From contig JACOSL010000016.1 of NCBI GenBank assembly GCA_016179045.1, forward strand, positions 1 through 64,000: 64,000 bases of DNA. Reading direction: 5' to 3'. The notes below the pieces were generated by a model. The model ran no database searches. It saw only the letters and a program-made list of their open reading frames with translations, and was not told the DNA's origin. Shown in pieces: positions 4,472 through 49,927 of the stretch (positions within the stretch are counted from its first letter, which is position 1; each line of letters begins with the position of its first letter). Position numbers and translations under genes: made by a program. This DNA comes from Fimbriimonas ginsengisoli (lineage in GTDB: Bacteria > Armatimonadota > Fimbriimonadia > Fimbriimonadales > Fimbriimonadaceae).

Positions 4472-4559
4472 TGGAGGAGAGAAGGGGATTCGAACCCCTG
4501 AGTCCTTGCGGACCTGCGGTTTTCAAGACCGCCGCATTCGACCACTCTGCCATCTCTCC
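4472..4559 (-). tRNA. tRNA-Ser (anticodon UGA)
   Basis: Read on the minus strand, the gene begins GGAGAGATGGCAGAGTGG. It has a 7-bp acceptor stem (GGAGAGA/TCTCTCC), a D arm, an anticodon stem GCGGT/ACCGC with loop CTTGAAA (anticodon TGA), a long class II variable arm (GTCC/GGAC with loop GCAA), and a T arm AGGGG-TTCGAAT-CCCCT. The long variable arm and the anticodon identify serine. CCA is encoded directly after the acceptor stem and one unpaired base. That base (position 73) is U rather than the G usual for bacterial tRNA-Ser. Confidence 0.97.
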
Positions 4560-4596: not shown

Positions 4597-4741
4597 TCGA
4601 ACGGTTGTCTAACGATGGTCGAACGATGGTCGGACAATGGCGGGGACAGGGGTCGAACGGTGGTCGAACAATGGTCGGACGATGGTCGAACGGTTGTCTA
4701 ACGATGGTCGAACCATTGCCCGGACGCTGGGGAACGGATGG
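4597..4741. repeat. 11-bp tandem array (TCGAACGATGG family), locus 1
   Basis: About 13 consecutive degenerate copies of an 11-bp unit fill the gap between the tRNA and the DUF4173 gene. Examples are TCGAACGGTTG, TCTAACGATGG, TCGAACGATGG, TCGGACAATGG, TCGAACGGTGG and TCGAACAATGG. The period stays 11 bp except for two 12-bp units. The array ends about 40 bp before the start codon at 4782. Confidence 0.9.
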
Positions 4742-4781: not shown

Positions 4782-6239
4782 ATGACGGCACGGACGCGAA
4801 TCGGGGCGGCGATCTTTCTAAGCTCCCTCGGCCTCGGAATCCTCGGCGACTCTCTCTTCCACTCGGCCAGCTACGGCCTCAACCTGCCTCTCTGGACCAT
4901 CGGGCTGTTCGGCGGGGCGATCGCCCTATCGCGATGGGCGGGCAAGCCCCTCGGAAGGGCCGCCACCCTCATCGCGACCCCGGTGCTGCTCTTCGCGCTG
5001 TGCTTCTTCTGGCGTGAGGCGCCCGAACTGAAGATTGCGAACGGAACCGCGATCGTGCTGCTCGTGGGGGCGGCGCTCGTGCGCTCGCCGCAAGGCGATT
5101 TCGCCCGGGCGAGCATCCTCGATCTCACCACCAAGGCCCTCTTCGCGTGGGTTGGCCTTGCCCGCGATTTCGTCGACCTCGTCACCAAAGATGTGCCCTG
5201 GCCGGGCGGCGAGGGCGCGAGGCAGCGCGCAAAGGCGGTGTTCCGTGGGCTGATTCTCGCCACGCCCCTGCTCATCGTGTTCGGGTTGCTGTTCGCGAGC
5301 GCCGATGCGGTGTTCGGCAAGGATCTCGGCCACTATCTCAGCCTCGAATGGCTGGATATGAACAGCGTTTGGACCACCATCTTCAACCTCGCCATCTTCG
5401 CCGGTCTGGCCGGAGGGCTGTATCGACGCATGCTCATGGCCGAGCCCAAGCCCGACGTGCCAGTAGCCCCGCCCAAGATCATCAAGACGATCGGGCTCAC
5501 CGAGGTCGCGGTCACCCTCTCCAGCCTGATCCTGATGTTCGGCGGGTTCGTTGCGGTGCAGGCTCGCGCCTTCTTCGGCGACGCGGCCTATGTGCGCGAG
5601 TCGGTCGGCCTCAGCTATGCCGAATATGCGCGCGCGGGCTTCTTCGAGCTGCTCGCGGTGGCGGCGATCGCGCTCGGCGTGCTTCTCGGCCTCCATGCGG
5701 TGCTCGAGCGCTCGGCCCGCAACCAGCGCGTGTTCGCCGGTCTGGCAAGCGGGCTGGTCGCCCTCGTCGGCGTGGTTGTCGTATCCGCGATGTGCCGCCT
5801 TAGCCTGTATGTGCAGGAATACGGCCTGACCGAACTCCGGGTGTACTCGGCCGCGCTCATTTTGTGGCTGGCCTTTGTGTTCGTGTGGCTGCTCGCGACC
5901 GTTCTGCACGGGCATCGGCAGCGGTTTGCTTTCGGGGCCTTGGCGGGTGCGTGTGCCGCGATTGCCGCGCTCAACGCGATCAATCCGGACGCCTTGATCG
6001 CGCGGGTGAACCTCGCCAGCGCCCACCATCCCGACCTCGAGTATCTGCAAACGCTCAGCCTTGACGCCTCCGCCGAGATCGACCGCGGTCTGGCGCGGCT
6101 GCCCGCCGCCGACGCGAACCAACTCCGCTCCGCCTTGAGCGAGAAATGGCGGGAAGAGACGACCTCCGATTGGCGCTCGATGAACGTGGCGCGCTGGCGC
6201 TATCTGCATCGGGGGCCGGCGACGATTTCCAGGCCGTGA
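4782..6239 (+). CDS. DUF4173/DUF4153-family polytopic membrane protein
   Basis: This 485-aa integral membrane protein has about 10-12 hydrophobic segments through residues 5-400 and a soluble C-terminal tail (about 410-485). The block SYAEYARAGFFELLAVA (about 285-301), followed further on by YGLTELRVYSAALILWL, is characteristic of the DUF4153/DUF4173 family; the family's function is unknown. The start is ATG 4782 because it is preceded by AGGAGGG with 8-nt spacing; the frame is open upstream through the repeat array but that part is not coding. The gene is flanked on both sides by 11-bp tandem arrays and appears to be transcribed alone. The C-terminal tail (DATANQLRSALSEK-like, charged) may be extracytoplasmic. 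Confidence 0.85.
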   Translation: MTARTRIGAAIFLSSLGLGILGDSLFHSASYGLNLPLWTIGLFGGAIALSRWAGKPLGRAATLIATPVLLFALCFFWREAPELKIANGTAIVLLVGAALVRSPQGDFARASILDLTTKALFAWVGLARDFVDLVTKDVPWPGGEGARQRAKAVFRGLILATPLLIVFGLLFASADAVFGKDLGHYLSLEWLDMNSVWTTIFNLAIFAGLAGGLYRRMLMAEPKPDVPVAPPKIIKTIGLTEVAVTLSSLILMFGGFVAVQARAFFGDAAYVRESVGLSYAEYARAGFFELLAVAAIALGVLLGLHAVLERSARNQRVFAGLASGLVALVGVVVVSAMCRLSLYVQEYGLTELRVYSAALILWLAFVFVWLLATVLHGHRQRFAFGALAGACAAIAALNAINPDALIARVNLASAHHPDLEYLQTLSLDASAEIDRGLARLPAADANQLRSALSEKWREETTSDWRSMNVARWRYLHRGPATISRP

Positions 6240-6241
6240 GG

Positions 6242-6300
6242 GATGGTCGAACGATGGTCGAACGATTGTCGAACGATTGTCGAACGATGGCGGGACGATG
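6242..6300. repeat. 11-bp tandem array (TCGAACGATGG family), locus 2
   Basis: This is the cleanest array. TCGAACGATGG, TCGAACGATTG, TCGAACGATTG and TCGAACGATGG run head to tail from 6247, followed by the diverged CGGGACGATG. It starts immediately after the stop codon of the DUF4173 gene and precedes the glycosyltransferase gene. Confidence 0.95.
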
Positions 6301-6367
6301 TCCGCTCGTGCTGCCACTCGGATGATCGTGAGCCCTCAAAGTGGCTAATAGGTAGACTCCTTAGCCT

Positions 6368-23686: not shown

Positions 23687-23749
23687 GGACACCTGACAAT
23701 CGTTAGACAATCGTTCGACAACCGTCAGACCATCGTCAGACCATTGTTG
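23687..23749. repeat. 11-bp tandem array (TCGAACGATGG family), locus 3
   Basis: Seen on the plus strand as the reverse complement: CAATCGTTAGA, CAATCGTTCGA, CAACCGTCAGA and CCATCGTCAGA are consecutive 11-mers, then CCATTGTTGCG. It abuts the stop codon of the VPS10/BNR gene, on the side away from its coding sequence. Confidence 0.9.
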
Positions 23750-23751
23750 CG

Positions 23752-26715
23752 TCAGGGCTTGGCAGGAGGCTTGGCCGAGAGCAGCGCGTTCGCTCTATCC
23801 TGTAGCCCTTTGAACGCCTCGTCCATCGCGGCGGTGGGCGCAAGGTCGGCGCCCTCGACCTCGCTCAAGAGCCAGCCGAGTCCGCCCATCACACCGTCCA
23901 CCTCGTCCGCCCTGAGCCTCCCACGCGCCGCTTCCAGTTTCGCCAGCAGATCAAGGCACGATTTCGAAAGCTGGAACTGCCGGCGCAAGTCGGCCAAGCT
24001 CGTGGTGACGCGCGGATCCATCTTCAGCGCGAGTGGCTGCTCGTAGGCCATTCTGTCGACGGTCAAGCGCACCTTGTACTGCCCCGGCAGCGCCCAAAGA
24101 GCGGTGGTCGGATAGGTTGTGTCGTGAACGATCGCCTGCATCGGCACCCAGCCGGTTGGGGGCAACTGAAACAACCGCAGATCCCAGATGAATCGGTGCG
24201 AGCCCGCCGAGCGGGCAAGAGGCTGGAACGGCCGAATCCAATACTGCGGCACTTGCAGGTCGGTCTCAGGGAAGTCGAACGGCTTGTCAGACGACGAGAA
24301 TCGCCTGAGAACCTCACCTTGCTCACCGACGATCTCGAGCGAGACCTCCTTGGCATCGGCCGCGAGAACATAGTTGAGGATCGCTCCCTCGGGCGGGTTC
24401 TTGCCACCAGGCTCGTCGGGCGGCAAGGGGGTGTCCGGGTTGGTGTTCCATCGAACGCGGATCGCGGTTTGGGGCTTGAATAACCGTGTCGCCGCCTTGC
24501 CGTCGATTTGCCTGAGAGGCGTTACGTCGTCGAGAATCCAGAACGAGCGCCCGTGGGTGCCGACCACCAGATCGTCTTCATGGACGACGAGGTCGCGGAT
24601 CGAGGTTGCGGGCATATTGAGCCGCAGCGGAAGCCAATTCTCGCCATCGTCGATCGAGAAGTACACGGCGCGCTCGGTGCCGCAATAGAGCAGCCCGGCG
24701 CGAACCGGATCCTCACGAATCGTGTTGGTTGGCGAATCGTCGGGCAGCCCGCGGACGATCCTCGTCCACGTCTTCCCGCCATCGTGAGTTCGGTAAAGGT
24801 AGGGATGGAGGTCGTCGAGTCGAATCCGGTTGATCGCCAAATAGGCGGCGGCTTTGTCGAAGTGCCCCGCGTCGATCTGCGAAACCTTGCTCCAGGCGGT
24901 CAGGTCGGGCGGGGTCACGTTTGCCCACGTCTTGCCGAGGTCGCGCGTGACGTGAACGAGCCCGTCGTCGGTACCCGCCCACAGCAAGTTGCGATCGAGG
25001 GGCGACGGGCCAAGCGAATACACGACGCCACGCCGGCGCATCTTCGCCAGTTCGGGCGTGCGATACACACCGATGCTGGCGGGAACGTCGGTCTGCTCGC
25101 GGCTGAGGTCGGGGCTGATCACGTCCCAGTGCTGGGCGCCGTCGTTGGTCTTGAAGATCACGTTGCCCGCGTACAGCAGCATCGTTGGGTCGGCGGGCGA
25201 GAACATCACGGGCGCGGTACGCAAGAAGCGAACTTCGCCCCGGCGCAGGGCTTGCGGTCCCACCGACTGCGCTTGGCCGGTAAGTCGGTCGTAGCGGCTG
25301 AGCTTGCCCCCGTAGACCAAGTTCGGATGAAGCGGATCGGGCGCGACGTAGCCGTACTCCTCCGCCGCTACCGGATGCCATTCTCGAAACGTGATCTGTC
25401 CGTCCGGCCCACGGCTCATCACCGCCGCAGATCCGCTCTCCTGCTGCCCGCCGTACACCCAGTAGGGGAACTGGTTGTCGGTGCTGACGTGATAGAACTG
25501 CGCGGTTGGCTGGTTGTACCAAGAGCTCCAGGTCTCGCCGCCATTGACGGTGACCACCGCGCCCTGGTCGGAGGCGAGAAGGATGATGTCGGGATTGTCG
25601 GGGCTGATCCAGATCGTGTGGTAGTCGTCTCCGCCCGGCGCTCCCTTCCAGGCGGTGAAGGTCTTGCCCCCGTCGGTCGAGCGGTAGGTCGAGGTGTTGG
25701 CGACGTAGAGCCTGTCCGGGTCCTTCGGATCGACCTTGATCTCGGCGAAGTCGTCGCCCCGCTCCCACAACCGCATTTGGCCATTCACCTTCGTCCAGCT
25801 TTCGCCCGCGTCTTCGGACCGGTACACGCCGCCCAACGCTTCATTGGCGTCCACCAGGGCGTACATGCGGTTGCCGTTGCTTGGCGCCACCCCGATCCCG
25901 ATGCGCCCCAGTCCTTGCGCGATGGTGGGCAGCCCCTTCGTGAGCTGCCGCCACGTATCGCCGCCGTCGGTCGACTTGTAGAGCCCGCTGTTCGGACCTT
26001 GCCAGTGGCCGTTCTCCCAGGGCGCTTGCCGGCCCGCCCACAGGTCGGCGTACAGAGTCTGCCGGTCCTTCGGATCGGCGGCGAGAGCGATCGCGCCCGT
26101 GTTCTCATCTTTATAAAGCACTTTCGCCCAGGTTTTGCCGCCGTCAGTGGAGCGAAACACGCCACGCTCCTCGTTCGCGCCATAGGGGTGGCCCAGCACA
26201 GCCACGAACACCCGGTTGGGATCGTGCGGGTCGATGAGGATCGCCCCGATCTGGAGCCCGTCGCGCAAGCCCAGGTGCTCCCACGTCTTGCCGCCGTCGA
26301 CTGACTAGTAAATCCCATCGCCGACCGACAGGTCGGGCCTCTGCAGCCCTTCGCCACTGCCAACGTAGATCACGTTCGGGTCGGAAGGCGCAACCGCAAG
26401 CGCGCCGATCGAGCCGGTCGGCTGGTCGTCGAAGATCGGCTTCCAGGTGCGGCCCGAGTCGTTGGTGCGCCAAACGCCGCCGTTGTTCACGCCGGTGTAG
26501 AACAGGTTAGGCTGGCCGGGAACGCCGGTCGCGCCCACCGTGCGTCCTCCGCGGAATGGCCCGATCATGCGCCAGCGGAGCGCGTCGTAGAGGATGTAAT
26601 CCGAACCCTGGACGTTGAACATGTCCTGGGCATTGCTGCGCGCAATGAAACGCGGGTGGGCGGCTATGGCGACGATAGCTATGGTAAGAAGACCAAGGCG
26701 GGGGCGGTTCATCAA
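23752..26715 (-). pseudogene. VPS10/BNR-repeat propeller protein interrupted by one amber codon
   Basis: One continuous frame encodes about 987 residues but is broken by a single TAG (26305-26307) after residue 136. The N-terminal part has a signal peptide (LGLLTIAIVAIAAHPRFIA) and begins the propeller. Downstream, sortilin/VPS10-type BNR motifs recur (FRSTDGGKTW, YRSEDAGESW, YRSTDGGKTF, YRTHDGGKTW). The normal repeat would read IYKSTDGGKTW; here it reads IY, stop, SVDGGKTW, so AAG to TAG is the simplest change. The C-terminal region (about 650-987) is the beta/helical tail of this secreted glycosidase-like family. The rest is intact, so it is either a recent pseudogene, a readthrough gene, or a sequencing error. 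A shorter product from 26268 would lack a signal peptide. Confidence 0.8.
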
Positions 26716-27071: not shown

Positions 27072-27117
27072 GAGCCACTCAAGGCCACTGCAGAGCCACC
27101 GCAAGGCCATGCAAAGC
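27072..27117. repeat. Second 11-bp-like repeat family (AGCCACGCAAG), locus 1
   Basis: AGCCACTCAAG, GCCACTGCAG, AGCCACCGCAAG and GCCATGCAAAG follow each other with a period of 10-12 bp. The cluster ends 10 bp before the stop codon of the minus-strand gene at 27127. The same units occur at 30049-30089, again just past the 3' end of a minus-strand gene. Confidence 0.6.
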
Positions 27118-27126
27118 GAATGGCGG

Positions 27127-27897
27127 TTAGGCCAGGGTGAGCGGACTATCCCAGGTGGCGGCGAAGCTCGCGTCCTGAGCCACGTAGTGGGGAAGTCGTT
27201 CGACGAAGCCCTCCATAGCCTGCGCCATGTCGAACGCATCGAACGGATCGAACGGCCGGTCGCGAACGCTGACCAGCCACCAGCCGCCCATCTGCCAATC
27301 GCGCACGGGCAAGCTCATCAGGTATTCGATCACTTTGGGATCGAGCAGGTCGTAGGCCTTCTTCTCATCGTCGCACTGGACAACGTAGCGGCGGTTGAAC
27401 TCCTCCATTTCGAACTTGATGTCTTGCATCCCGAGATGCTCGCCGATGCGCGTGAACACGTTCTCCGGCCCGATGCGCAGACTCGGCAAGATCATCGAGA
27501 CGCGCAGGGCGGATACCGAGCATGTGAACGTGGTGCTGCTCTTGCCCGTGCTGATCGTGTAGCGGTATTGAAACAGATAGCAATCCGAGCGCTCGCGGCG
27601 GGCCACCAGCAGGTCGGTCAAACGCCGGTTCGTCCCCCTCGTGAAGGGCTCAAACGGCTGAAGCTGGAGGAGCAGAGGATCGGCGGGCGCGGAATCGAAC
27701 AGCCCAAAGAACGGGCCCGGATCGTAAATCTTGTTCGGGTAGCCCTGAGCGTAATAGGTGAATCCCTGTGTGTTGGCGAAGTCGAAGCAGGTCTCGCGCA
27801 TCCGCTCGGCCCGCGCGTTCGAGGCCGCCTTCACGACGACGGCGATGCCGCCGAACACGATGACCGCGACGAGAATGAGCAGCGACGGATCGACCAT
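27127..27897 (-). CDS. Membrane-anchored hypothetical protein, 256 aa
   Basis: No family can be named with confidence. A single N-terminal membrane helix (SLLILVAVIVFGGIAVVVKAA, residues 4-24) is followed by a cytoplasmic or periplasmic domain of about 220 residues. Landmarks are FANTQGFTYY, FQYRYTISTGKSSTTFTCSVSAL, and EEFNRRYVVQCDDEKKAYDLLDPKVIEYLM. The last block resembles a widespread uncharacterised membrane-anchored group in actinobacteria and others, in which an FNRRF-type motif is followed by a DP motif and an L-rich helix. The start ATG 27897 places the helix at the very N-terminus. It is isolated, with repeats on both sides. Confidence 0.7.
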   Translation of the reverse strand: MVDPSLLILVAVIVFGGIAVVVKAASNARAERMRETCFDFANTQGFTYYAQGYPNKIYDPGPFFGLFDSAPADPLLLQLQPFEPFTRGTNRRLTDLLVARRERSDCYLFQYRYTISTGKSSTTFTCSVSALRVSMILPSLRIGPENVFTRIGEHLGMQDIKFEMEEFNRRYVVQCDDEKKAYDLLDPKVIEYLMSLPVRDWQMGGWWLVSVRDRPFDPFDAFDMAQAMEGFVERLPHYVAQDASFAATWDSPLTLA

Positions 27898-27947: not shown

Positions 27948-27999
27948 ATGAGTGACGGGATGTCGCTCGTCACTTGTCACTCGTCGCTAGTCTCGTCGG
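27948..27999. repeat. GAGTGACG/CGTCACTC short repeat cluster
   Basis: GATGAGTGACGGGATG is followed by CTCGTCACTTGTCACTCGTC, so short GTGAC-type units occur in both orientations within 50 bp. The same units (CGACGAGTGACGAG, GGCGAGTGACGGG) recur in the leader of the isocitrate dehydrogenase gene near 55490-55530. The cluster lies between two minus-strand genes. Confidence 0.45.
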
Positions 28000-28021
28000 A
28001 TGTGATCGCTTCGCTATCGCT

Positions 28022-28453
28022 TCAGAGCTTGATGTCGACGATGCCGCTCACGCCGACGCCGTCCACGCGCTTGATGTCCTGGATGACATCCTTGCTCGAG
28101 ACCGGGATGAGCGCCTTGACCCGCACCTCATGGCCGAAGAGCTCGGCGTCAGGCTGTGCCACCGCGACCACCTGATCGACCTTGTTCCTGGGGCCCATGA
28201 TCTGCGCGCCGCCGATCGCATGGCTTGCGCCGATGCCCACCGTCAAAATCGGCACCACCTTGGTTGTGGTCGCATAGGTGTCCTTGTGGTTCGAGATCCT
28301 GTTGATCGCGCTGTTCATTTGGGGGCCGAACTGCTTGATCGCGACGGCTACGCCGCCGATCTTCAAGAGCTGGCCGAGTTGCGAAAAGCCGATCCCCGCC
28401 AAAGCAATGGCGCCTACGCCCGTCACAACCACTCTCTTCATCCTTTGAGTCAT
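28022..28453 (-). CDS. Small exported hypothetical protein
   Basis: The family is not recognised. The start ATG 28453 is preceded by AGGAGA with 7-nt spacing. The 143-aa product has a signal-like N-terminus ([20 protein letters not shown]). The mature part has alternating short strands and helices, including [21 protein letters not shown], and ends in [14 protein letters not shown]. The hydrophobic stretches are moderate, so it could be periplasmic or attached to the membrane. It stands between a repeat cluster and the divergent serS gene; the 116-bp gap to serS should contain both promoters. Confidence 0.7.
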
Positions 28454-30048: not shown

Positions 30049-30089
30049 GCCACGCACAGCCACGCAAGGCCATGCAGAGCCACGCAAGC
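30049..30089. repeat. Second 11-bp-like repeat family (AGCCACGCAAG), locus 2
   Basis: GCCACGCAC, AGCCACGCAAG, GCCATGCAGAG and CCACGCAAG lie head to tail immediately past the 3' end of the minus-strand gene at 30098. The remainder of the 250-bp gap after serS (29848-30048) shows only a short hairpin (CCCCTTCGAAGAGGGG region, about 29905-29920) and no gene. Confidence 0.6.
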
Positions 30090-30097
30090 GCCCCCGT

Positions 30098-30613
30098 TCA
30101 CATGTGCAGCGTGACCGTGCGTGCGACCTCGGTGTGCATCGGGTCGCCCTTCTTGATCTCGACCTCTTTGCCCTTTACGAACACTCCGGCCGCGAGGCCG
30201 ACCGGGCCGAGGACGATCGCGCCCGCGCCCGCCGTGCCCGCCGCGCGGTCGGTCTTGCTGCCCTTGAACTCCTTGCCTTTGCGGGCGGGTCGCAGGCCGA
30301 TGCTCGCCCCGTGCAGGCGCAAAGGATCGATTGTGATCTGAATCTGCGCGTTCTTGCCGAAGGTGCCGCGCCGCCGCACTTCGCTCACGATGCCGGTGAC
30401 GCGCGTGCCGCGGGCGATCGCGGTGTGGCCGTCGATCGTGACCGCCTCGGAAACCTTGAATTTCACCTTGTCGCCGGGCTTGGCCGTCTTCGTGGTCAGC
30501 GCCTGGTCGAAAACGAGGTTCACCGCCGTGTTCTCGCGCAGGACGGTGTCCGCCGCCATCGCGACGAGGGTGGATAGAGAGAGGGCGATTGCGGCAATGA
30601 GTCTGGTGGTCAT
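30098..30613 (-). CDS. Exported hypothetical protein, 171 aa
   Basis: The start ATG 30613 follows AAGGAG with 8-nt spacing; a longer frame runs back through an 11-bp array and is not coding. The signal peptide is RLIAAIALSLSTLVAMAA (cleavage near residue 20). The mature part matches a pattern common in acidobacterial and related exported proteins: VNLVFDQALTTKTAKPGDKV, then a VTIDGHTAIARGTRVTGIV beta hairpin and GKNAQIQITIDPLRL. A Gly/Ala-rich hydrophobic segment (AGTAGAGAIVLGPVGLAAGVF) lies at about 120-140, and the C-terminus is charged. The function of this group is unknown; it is probably periplasmic or attached to the envelope. Confidence 0.75.
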   Translation of the reverse strand: MTTRLIAAIALSLSTLVAMAADTVLRENTAVNLVFDQALTTKTAKPGDKVKFKVSEAVTIDGHTAIARGTRVTGIVSEVRRRGTFGKNAQIQITIDPLRLHGASIGLRPARKGKEFKGSKTDRAAGTAGAGAIVLGPVGLAAGVFVKGKEVEIKKGDPMHTEVARTVTLHM

Positions 30614-30663: not shown

Positions 30664-30713
30664 CACCATGGTTCGACCATTGTCCGACCATCGTTCGACA
30701 ACCGTTCGACGTC
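30664..30713. repeat. 11-bp tandem array (TCGAACGATGG family), locus 4
   Basis: CCATGGTTCGA, CCATTGTCCGA, CCATCGTTCGA and CAACCGTTCGA are four consecutive units (reverse orientation), followed by CGTCC. The array lies between the divergent starts of the exported protein (30613, minus) and the AAA_35-WD40 gene (30770, plus), where promoters are expected. Confidence 0.92.
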
Positions 30714-30769: not shown

Positions 30770-33700
30770 ATGGCGGCGGTTGCACGCAGCAGCTTTTTTG
30801 TTTCGGGCGGGACTCTCCCGCTCGAGACGCCCAGCTACGTCGTTCGTGCCTGCGACGACGCGCTCTTTGAATCGCTCAGCGAGGGCCGATTCTGCTACGT
30901 GCTCAATTCGCGCCAGATGGGCAAGTCGTCCTTGTCGGTGCGGACAATGGAGCGGCTGGAGGGCGTGGGCATCCGCTCGATCTTCATCGATCTCACCAAG
31001 ATCGGCGGGCGCAACGTAACCCCAGAGCAGTGGTACGCCGGTCTGCTTGGCGAGGTGGGCCGCGCCCTCGGTCTCCGCCAGCAGATGTTCGATCATTGGA
31101 AGGATCACGACCATCTTGGCCCGATGCAGCGATTCTTCGGCGCTTTGCGGGAGGTGGCACTCGATGCCCAGCCCGGCAACCTGGTCATTTTCATCGATGA
31201 AATCGATGCGACTCGGGGCCTTTCTTTTTCCGCCGACGAGTTTTTTGCCGGCATCCGCGAGTGCTACAACCGGCGCGTCCACGATCCCGGCTATTCCAGG
31301 CTGACGTTTTGCCTCGTGGGAGTGGCCGTTCCCAGCGATCTGATCCGCGATCCCCGTACAACGCCTTTCAACATCGGCGATCGCATCGTGCTTGCCGACT
31401 TCAGCCTCGATGAGGCGAATGCCTTCGCCCAGGGTCTCGGGCCGGACGGCCAGCAGCTCATCAAGCGGGTCCACCATTGGACGAGCGGGCACCCGTTCCT
31501 CACCCAGAGCCTTTGCGTTGCGCTGAGCTCGCGCAACGGAGAAGCGAGCGAGGAGCTTGTGGACAAGCTTGCCTCGGAGATGTTCTTTGCCGCCAAGGCG
31601 CGTGAGACCAACATCAACCTCGCCGACGTGGGCAACCGGGTGCTGAACGGCGCGCCCCTCGACGCGGACGTCAATCTATTTCGCGCCGACGCCCTGCACT
31701 GCTACGAGAAGGTGCTGGCGGGCAAAGAGCCGGTGGCGGACGATGACACGAACGAGTGCACGTCCGTGCTCAAGCTAGCGGGGTTGCTGCGCGTGGATGG
31801 CGGGCATCTCAAAGTCCGCAATCGCATCTATGAGCGGGTCTTCGACCGGGCCTGGATAACCGAGAACATGCCCGAGCAGGAGGTTCGACGCCAAAAGAAG
31901 GCTTATCTCAAGGGCGTTTTGCGCACCGCGGGCATCGCGGCCGCGGTCATCCTCGGCGTTGGCGGCCTGGCCTTCAGCAACTACCGGCTTGCCAAGGAGC
32001 GGGCGATCGCGCTCGCCGAGGCGAAGAGCGAGAACGCGAGGGCCAACTACGAACTGTACGTTTCCAAGATGGGCCTGATCGCGGGCGCTTGGGAGCATAA
32101 CAACGTTGACCTCGTTCAGGACGTCCTCGCGGAAACGGCGGCCAGTCCCGCCAGGAGCTGGGAGTGGGATTACTGGGATCGCCTCGCCAACAATTACCTG
32201 TATCAGTCGGACGAAGAACTAGCCATCTGGCCCCGATTCTCGCCCGACGGCAAGCAACTGGCGTCCCGTTTCGACGACCACATCACGATTGCCGACGCGA
32301 GGACCGGCCGGGTCATTCGTAAGTTGTCCAACGTTCGGCGGGGGGTAGGGATTTGTCGATGGACCCACGACGGCAGGCTGCTGGATCTCGTCAGCGGCGA
32401 GGACTTGCAACTGCTCGATCCAATCGCCGGCAAGGTGATCCGGACGCTCATTCCCAAGTGTGATGGATTCGTGGTTTCCAATGACGCGCCGCTAGTCCAG
32501 GGCGGCTCAGGTGGGGGGCATGGCAATAATTCACAGCAAATGATTGTCGATCTGAACGGTACGAGGACTCTCCTCGGCCTGCCGGTCCTCAACGCCGCGT
32601 TCGCCCCTGGTGGACAACGCATTCTGCTCATCGGCGGGTCGCAAAACCGCCCGGAGCGACAGGCGATTTTGATGGAGTGGCCTTCTAAGCGCATTTTGCA
32701 GCAGGCGCCCCTTTCGCCCGGCGTGCGCTCCGCGTCAGTTAGTTTCGACGGAAGATTCGCGGTCGTGGGCGACGTCGATGGCACCGTCACGCTCATGGAA
32801 CTCCAGACACTCAAGCGTCTGTGGTCGAAGCCGATCCACCACGGCTTCGTGCGCACGGTTGACTTCTCGGCGGATGGCAAGTGGCTGGTGTCCGGCGGAG
32901 GCGACAACGTTGGGCATATCCTCGACGCCAAAACAGGCGTGATCCTACGAACCTACCGCGGCTGCACCGACATCACGATTAGCTCCAAGGGCGATCGTGT
33001 GCTCTGCACTTATAGCCGTTACCGCGGCTACGATCCACGCGCGCCCGATGATCAGCCCGTCCTGAGCCTTAGCGGAGCACCGATCCGTGGGGTCGTCCCC
33101 AGGCAAGACGGAACGTTCCTAGTGCAGGGCCTTTTCGGCAAGAAGTGGTTCTTGGATTCCGACCTCAAGACAGTTCGCCCCGCCCCCGACGGCAAGGGCG
33201 CTGCGGGCGACCCCAACATGATCCTCATCGCGAACGGAAGCGGCTCCGCTCTTTACGATTTGACCACTGGGAAGACGGTTCTCGAACTCGATAGCGCCTA
33301 CGACGTCACCTTCTTCACGGCCAGTGCGGATCATCGCATCGTGGTCGTCGTGGATGGAGCCAGGAAGATGGGGGCGGTTTACGAACTGACATCCCGCAAG
33401 AGGATCGCCAGTATCCTTGCGGCGGGCGATGACACGACGGGACAAATCTCGCCGGATGGCTCCATCCTAGCTGTTGGCAAGCTCGATAGCACGGTCACGA
33501 TCCTCAACGCCCTGACCTTCACATTCATGCAAACGCTTCGAGGGCACCGGCTCCCGGTAGTCGCCTTCCGTTTTTCCAACGACTCACGTCGCCTTATTAC
33601 GTGCGCCCAGGACGACACCGCGCGCGTGTGGGACCTCGCGACGGGCCAGTCGGTTCTTCTCAAAGGCCATTCGGAGACAGTGAACGCCGCCGCGTTCACA

Positions 33701-33901
33701 CCAGACGGCTCTCGTGTTGCGACTGGGAGCCTGGACCACAGCGTACGGATTTGGGACTCGCGAACCGGGCGCGAGTTGGCGCGTCTGGAGGGCCACAACG
33801 CCGAGGTCACCTCGGTCGCCTTCGACAATCAAGGCAAGAACCTGCTTAGCACGAGCATCGACGGAACGATTCGTGTATGGCAAACTGGTAAAGAGAAGTA
33901 G
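30770..33901 (+). CDS. AAA_35 NTPase - transmembrane - WD40 repeat protein
   Basis: This 1043-aa multidomain protein starts at ATG 30770 after GGAG with 5-nt spacing. Residues about 5-360 form an AAA_35-type (STAND-like) ATPase: Walker A RQMGKSSL near 45, Walker B LVIFIDEID near 140, then DFSLDEANAFAQGL and HHWTSGHPFLTQSLC. One membrane helix lies at about 383-402 (GIAAAVILGVGGLAFSNY). A coiled coil follows (KERAIALAEAKSENARANYEL). From about 450 to the end are WD40 repeats, clearest at the C-terminus (LRGHRLPVVAFRF..ARVWDLATGQ; LKGHSETVNAAAF..VRIWDSRTGR; LEGHNAEVTSVAF..IRVWQTG). The layout suggests a ligand-sensing propeller coupled to a signalling NTPase. The next gene, 14 bp on, shares the AAA_35 module. 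Confidence 0.88.
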   Translation: MAAVARSSFFVSGGTLPLETPSYVVRACDDALFESLSEGRFCYVLNSRQMGKSSLSVRTMERLEGVGIRSIFIDLTKIGGRNVTPEQWYAGLLGEVGRALGLRQQMFDHWKDHDHLGPMQRFFGALREVALDAQPGNLVIFIDEIDATRGLSFSADEFFAGIRECYNRRVHDPGYSRLTFCLVGVAVPSDLIRDPRTTPFNIGDRIVLADFSLDEANAFAQGLGPDGQQLIKRVHHWTSGHPFLTQSLCVALSSRNGEASEELVDKLASEMFFAAKARETNINLADVGNRVLNGAPLDADVNLFRADALHCYEKVLAGKEPVADDDTNECTSVLKLAGLLRVDGGHLKVRNRIYERVFDRAWITENMPEQEVRRQKKAYLKGVLRTAGIAAAVILGVGGLAFSNYRLAKERAIALAEAKSENARANYELYVSKMGLIAGAWEHNNVDLVQDVLAETAASPARSWEWDYWDRLANNYLYQSDEELAIWPRFSPDGKQLASRFDDHITIADARTGRVIRKLSNVRRGVGICRWTHDGRLLDLVSGEDLQLLDPIAGKVIRTLIPKCDGFVVSNDAPLVQGGSGGGHGNNSQQMIVDLNGTRTLLGLPVLNAAFAPGGQRILLIGGSQNRPERQAILMEWPSKRILQQAPLSPGVRSASVSFDGRFAVVGDVDGTVTLMELQTLKRLWSKPIHHGFVRTVDFSADGKWLVSGGGDNVGHILDAKTGVILRTYRGCTDITISSKGDRVLCTYSRYRGYDPRAPDDQPVLSLSGAPIRGVVPRQDGTFLVQGLFGKKWFLDSDLKTVRPAPDGKGAAGDPNMILIANGSGSALYDLTTGKTVLELDSAYDVTFFTASADHRIVVVVDGARKMGAVYELTSRKRIASILAAGDDTTGQISPDGSILAVGKLDSTVTILNALTFTFMQTLRGHRLPVVAFRFSNDSRRLITCAQDDTARVWDLATGQSVLLKGHSETVNAAAFTPDGSRVATGSLDHSVRIWDSRTGRELARLEGHNAEVTSVAFDNQGKNLLSTSIDGTIRVWQTGKEK

Positions 33902-49850: not shown

Positions 49851-49869
49851 ACGCGCCGTGGCTCGCGAC

Positions 49870-49927
49870 GATGGTCCAACCGGCAATCGTTCGACGATCA
49901 TTCGACCATGTTCGACGACTGCTAGAC
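49870..49927. repeat. 11-bp tandem array (TCGAACGATGG family), locus 5 (degenerate)
   Basis: GATGGTCCAAC, CGGCAATCGTTCGA, CGATCATTCGA, CCATGTTCGA and CGACTGCTAGA are unit-like, mostly in reverse orientation, with 10-14 bp spacing. It is the most decayed of the five arrays and lies directly before the small membrane protein gene at 49975. Confidence 0.6.

Follow-up and report, generated by a model that had tools for sequence, protein, structure and literature searches.

Short tandem arrays lie scattered between the genes of the Fimbriimonas ginsengisoli genome analysed here (the source genome), and facing arrays of the same layout were found around most genes for the S23 protein (PF05635), in several phyla. 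We consider it likely that the 11-bp arrays that make up family A in the source genome are the arms of S23/IVS-type elements, most of which carry no gene. The content, positions and pairing of the arrays were observed directly, as were an element copy centred on S23, between groES and groEL, and one site that is occupied here and empty in relatives.

The initial annotation had described 11-bp units, in both orientations, at five intergenic sites of the window, the 64,000-nucleotide stretch of DNA analysed (contig C18). All five are borne out with refined coordinates, the phase being broken at the last of them (Table 1). The window also holds features absent from that annotation: two arrays of a second family, B, and one 7-bp array of a third, C.

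Table 1 Tandem arrays in the window and their gene context.
Feature	Position	Strand	Units	Context
Family A array	4597–4640	+	4	Followed, one extra base later, by a second run
Family A array	4642–4718	+	7 (first degenerate)	Degenerate units continue to 4741
Family A array, both runs	4597–4718			37 bp between its 5′ end and that of tRNA-Ser (4472–4559, minus strand)
Family A array	6247–6301	+	4 good, 1 degenerate (last)	Begins 7 bp past the TGA stop of a DUF4153 gene (4782–6239), pointing away
Family A array	23697–23751	−	5 (first degenerate)	Directly abuts the stop of minus-strand gene 23752–26268, pointing away
Family B array, CTTTGCGGTGG type	27074–27117	−	4, of 10–11 bp	About 10 bp between its 5′ end and the stop of minus-strand gene 27127–27897
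Family C 7-bp array	27962–28009	−		About 12 bp between its 5′ end and the stop of minus-strand gene 28022–28453
Family B array, 10-bp form	30049–30088	−	4, CTTGCGTGGC	About 9 bp between its 5′ end and the stop of minus-strand gene 30098–30613
Family A array	30666–30709	−	4	Divergent genes on either side (30098–30613, minus; 30770–33901, plus)
Degenerate family A array	49884–49926	−	Broken phase	Weakest of the five sites; possible lone inverted partner unit near 49868–49878, on the 3′ side

A whole-genome search for a dimer of the family A unit, TCGAACGATGG, with up to 3 mismatches returned 93 matches (58 forward and 35 reverse), and the same pattern read backwards as a control returned 0 forward and 0 reverse, so this is a real repeat family and not a product of chance. 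The 2.27-Mb genome (66 contigs) contains approximately 45 to 50 family A arrays. We located 49 of them in 422 kb of the genome (the window plus loci L040–L074), a sample that was mostly picked around arrays, and the number is therefore not a density. In the same 422 kb, period-11 arrays occur 45 times in 60 kb of intergenic DNA versus once in 362 kb of coding DNA; the earlier statement that the arrays always sit in gaps thus holds almost without exception, and the 11-bp phasing recurs in the other copies. The located arrays adjoin protein-coding genes or tRNA genes, and none lies inside 23S rRNA. Across 290 other genomes of the phylum, the family A dimer gave single three-mismatch matches only, at chance level. 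A search for known RNA families found tRNA only.

Four is the modal number of units (24 of the 49 family A arrays). Within an array, units resemble one another no more than units shuffled genome-wide do (P = 0.33), and neighbouring units are slightly more similar than shuffled ones (8.50 versus 8.22 of 11; P = 0.001). The units follow a position-specific consensus without local homogenization, and only a single candidate for a copied array was found (C48:2290 and C63:24286). Three tandem copies of a stretch of about 330 bp with a family A array are found at L044 (C14:19155, 19485 and 19811).

Placement follows a rule. Genes were called with a simple codon-usage finder, which places starts only approximately. 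By these calls, 35 of 47 family A arrays have the end with the first unit closer to a gene edge than the opposite end (median distances, 34 bp at the first-unit end and 118 bp at the opposite one), as do 21 of 24 family B arrays, giving 56 of 71 for the two together (P = 1e-6). Arrays of both families run away from the gene whose edge the first unit adjoins, and at stop codons the distance is frequently 0 to 15 bp. Because the rule holds at gene starts as well as at gene stops, the orientation of an array is set by the gene edge and not by transcription. When two arrays share one gap they face each other across a core of approximately 11 to 25 bp; most arrays in the genome are solo.

Family B, the second 11-bp family (CTTTGCGGTGG, with 10-bp variants), gave 42 dimer matches genome-wide and 0 in the control. 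At C23:19785, family A and B units follow one another in phase within one array. Family C has 7-bp units, GTCRCTY (RAGYGAC on the G-rich strand), and further sites of this family lie at C61:42114, C30:16772 and C2:19160. In the assembly, which is 93% complete, no S23 partner was found for family B or for the 7-bp family. An A-core-B element (L046; C20:2327–2481) stands between genes of a region that is likely a prophage or derived from a phage, with a major capsid protein E gene downstream. A palindromic hairpin family, GGGACGCCAAGGATGGCGTCCC, often follows arrays (on C14, C35, C43 and other contigs), and CCTCCCTTGAGGGAGG and GGGCACGACGGAGCGTGCC are other common repeated hairpins in the genome.

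The site that is occupied here and empty elsewhere lies between relA and dtd. In relatives (L221–L224), where the C terminus of RelA is recognizable, the stop of relA and the start of dtd overlap (NTGA). In the source genome the two genes are 160 bp apart, with an A4-core-A4 element inside and TGAG on each side; these flanks are known from this one locus alone, which is no proof of target duplication. Folded as RNA, both this element and the S23 element are more stable than shuffled sequence (z = −2.98 and −3.51, respectively).

The sole S23 gene of the source genome sits between groES and groEL (PF05635 match, 104 bits) and is enclosed by inward-facing family A arrays (C63:24286–24329, plus strand; C63:24722–24765, minus strand). 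Its product is a sequence homologue of Xanthomonas XCC0516 (PDB 2gsc; E = 4.6e-21). An S23 gene between inverted ends was found at this one family A pair and not at the other family A or B arrays. Several relatives also have S23 at groES, for which reason we rejected a fresh insertion there, and groES-linked S23 proteins largely cluster (one clade of 11 among the 70 proteins has 7 linked members). The gap between groES and S23 holds a 7-bp GTTGGCA array in one relative (G010) and an 11-bp GTCGCCAAATC array in another (G004). From these comparisons, S23 is probably old at groES, with only the array units having turned over there. Units that flank S23 also occur as dispersed arrays in both relatives: the 10-bp GGTTCGGATT and 7-bp AGTTGGC in G004, and GTTGGCR in G010. 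The G004 genome has a dispersed 10-bp array family, GTTCGGRTTN (L299–L318), with a unit in common with its S23 locus (L193). An 11-bp unit in a further genome (G015), GTGAGCGAAAG, proved to be three copies of one sequence and was dropped as a dispersed family.

Facing arrays with locus-specific units flank most S23 genes of the relatives, of Bacteroidales and of cyanobacterial, Gemmatimonadota and Riemerella plasmids. Among 91 S23 genes surveyed, a short tandem array lies upstream of 65 (71%), downstream of 51 and on both sides of 43; at the thresholds used, the upstream array was absent from 26. In 385 long open reading frames from relatives, which served as controls, the corresponding numbers are 4 (1%), 10 and 0. 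As the surveyed S23 genes are related and not independent samples, P values for these comparisons are only descriptive. Windows offset by 850 bp at S23 loci contained arrays in 21 and 18 of 181 cases, counts that are raised in part because S23 genes and arrays cluster. The two arrays at an S23 gene match better inverted in 34 cases and directly in 6 (medians, 0.86 and 0.43), and the upstream arrays are G-rich (1,037 G versus 321 C). Their units are 6, 7, 8, 9, 10 or 11 bp long, most commonly 7 bp. We found no S23 in the phages searched, and among open-access full texts we found no paper that ties S23 to tandem arrays. On plasmids of two cyanobacterial genera, Anabaena sp. 90 (L373) and Pseudanabaena galeata (L377), an S23 gene with tandem arrays is flanked by cas6 and cas4 of a CRISPR operon, which in Anabaena contains Cas1d (type I-D). 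Another locus (L358; G133:C7:3000–20000) has several clustered S23 genes with nested arrays of differing units.

Although the initial annotation recognized no known family, the placement rules match those of heptamers in Xanthomonas and Nostoc, and the link to S23 leads to IVS elements. The G-rich repeats GGGAATC and GGGGA(C/T)T (GGGGAYT) of Xanthomonas and Nostoc are intergenic, have mostly four units and lie 28 nt from the 5′ open reading frame versus 160 nt from the downstream one, whatever the direction of the frames; in Xanthomonas they form 70 to 75 convergent pairs per genome (PMC4692102). The arrays of the source genome are likewise intergenic and dispersed, with a mode of four units, facing pairs, a position nearer the 5′ frame and closeness to stop codons. 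Unlike those 7-bp repeats, the family A unit is 11 bp long and has no G3 tracts: 0 of 49 arrays have the four G3 tracts of a G-quadruplex, so the placement rules here cannot depend on quadruplex formation. The account of the Xanthomonas and Nostoc repeats emphasizes G-quadruplexes and does not mention S23 (PMC4692102). The IVS in the Coxiella 23S rRNA is 428 nt long and has an S23 gene with tandem heptamers directly before its start; its complementary ends form a 28-bp stem, RNase III excises it and it has been termed a selfish element (PMC4990558). Common to it and to the elements described here are the S23 gene, short tandem repeats before its start, complementary stem-forming ends and a host gene that stays functional. 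The elements of the source genome differ in lying between protein or RNA genes, in having arms of 4 × 11 bp and in being mostly gene-less, and cutting by RNase III is only predicted for them. More distant likenesses exist. The TAACTGA heptamers of Beggiatoaceae, patchy in Cyanobacteria and Bacteroidetes, are likewise short intergenic tandem arrays at the edges of genes, for the most part directly before start codons, with a 7-bp unit and no reported link to S23 (PMC4679880). The BrickBuilt MITE of Porphyromonas gingivalis is an intergenic element with inverted ends and a minisatellite of 23-bp units (PMC4596501), and shares that combination with family A but not paired facing arms around S23.

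The full element, as we picture it, would consist of a tandem array with its G-rich strand inward, an S23 gene and the same array inverted. Most copies in the source genome would have lost S23 or never held it, leaving two facing arrays with a short core, or a solo arm. The element may arrive by insertion, with a preference for gene edges and stop codons; S23 may help it to spread, and gene-less copies would rely on an S23. In transcripts the two arms could form a stem, which would render the insert tolerable and might be cleaved by RNase III in the way demonstrated experimentally for the 23S rRNA IVS that carries S23; loss of one arm would leave a solo array. Neither transposition nor any activity of S23 is known. 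Against this account stand the ratio of about 45 family A arrays to one remaining S23 gene, the lack of S23 partners for family B and the 7-bp family, the apparent independence of the arrays, unlike what recent copying predicts, the probable age of S23 at groES and the 26 surveyed S23 genes without an upstream array. Since most arrays are solo, decay has to be assumed.

Several properties of family A would also suit binding sites. A protein stepping by 11 bp, either a CarH/MerR-like tetramer or a nucleoid protein, might bind four units on one face of the DNA near gene edges and so control or insulate transcription. The mode of four units fits, as does a position-specific consensus without local homogenization, which binding sites would show, and three or four 11-bp direct repeats in tandem make up the binding sites of CarH tetramers (PMC9304148). 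However, the CarH motif nnnnTnnACAn is missing from TCGAACGATGG, and with TnnACA absent from the family A unit frequencies we rejected CarH-type operators, which share the 11-bp step but occupy few promoter sites, whereas family A occupies dozens of gene edges. Arrays are also equally frequent after stops and before starts, and relatives have other units and periods between groES and S23. The suggestion that an 11-bp unit reflects one helical turn does not extend to the equivalent arrays beside S23, which step by 6 to 11 bp and mostly by 7, or to the 7-bp array at groES in G010. We regard this reading as quite unlikely; a protein that reads one DNA face is possible in the source genome, although not needed. 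Among the roles that had been offered at the outset, selfish repeats fit best, and protein binding loses its best 11-bp precedent, CarH, on the motif. Non-mobile RNA elements of the host, which would act in 5′ or 3′ untranslated regions near gene ends through stability, termination or G-quadruplexes and among which S23 would merely be found, would account for the tight fit to stop codons and for paired arms that out-fold shuffled sequence; the Xanthomonas repeats are mostly transcribed and within 50 bp of the ends of open reading frames (PMC4692102). The lack of quadruplex capacity in family A and an orientation fixed by gene edge and not by direction of transcription argue against such elements, which would also leave the facing arrays of S23 genes and the relA/dtd insertion unexplained, and we think them unlikely.

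Neutral microsatellites, gained and lost by slippage in gaps as the sole tolerant DNA, would explain why coding DNA is almost free of arrays and why adjacent units are slightly more alike, but not one unit at about 45 unlinked loci, a unit number that peaks at four instead of declining from two, or oriented placement. Similarity within arrays is not raised overall; the unit statistics led us to reject recent slippage, and we judge the neutral reading very improbable. Facing arms do resemble terminal inverted repeats, and the TGAG flanks at one locus, relA/dtd, would suit REP/RAYT elements or a classical MITE moved by a Y1 or DDE transposase. The genome, however, has one weak Y1_Tnp match, none is linked to arrays, up to 9 occur in relatives that lack the family, and the arms are tandem arrays with units that differ between genomes. 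We therefore rejected RAYT/REP, and rate this class of explanation as highly improbable. Viral origin was also rejected, as viral contigs have no family A match and phages have no S23. The same 11-bp consensus recurs in rumen Bacteroidales (RUG377, G062 and relatives; 13 of 148 genomes searched) in near-palindromes of about 94 bp with units TCGAACGATGG and TTAAACGATGG and a TATAT-like core. Their arms point outward and show no co-variation between left and right, with unit 1 less similar from one arm to the other than expected (7.9 versus 8.6 of 11); we set aside a horizontally shared family, the likeness being either coincidence or kinship. Such palindromes occur in G062 and G146 at L036, L037, L076, L079, L105 and other loci.

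S23 was first known from insertions in rRNA and has for many years been described as functionless. Short tandem arrays between bacterial genes have been described more than once, whether as G-quadruplex repeats, as post-transcriptional binding sites or as repeats without known use. The present results tie the two together: S23 genes of several phyla lie between facing arrays, and the repeats of the source genome have both that unit and that layout. On a broader view, which we find conceivable although we lean slightly against it, S23 would define widespread, unrecognized small mobile elements with inverted short-tandem-repeat ends and fast-changing units; the dispersed heptamers, decamers and 11-mers of Xanthomonas, of Nostoc (STRR-like) and of the source genome would be gene-less derivatives or solo arms, and the IVSs of 23S rRNA the same element in another home. 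Explanations that depend on the sequence of a single unit, be it G-quadruplexes or the 11-bp helical face, are weakened. Our findings suggest that many puzzling repeats between genes are fragments of a single kind of genetic element that has been overlooked, and the tie between S23 and the arrays opens a direct test of both the function of S23 and the origin of the repeats.
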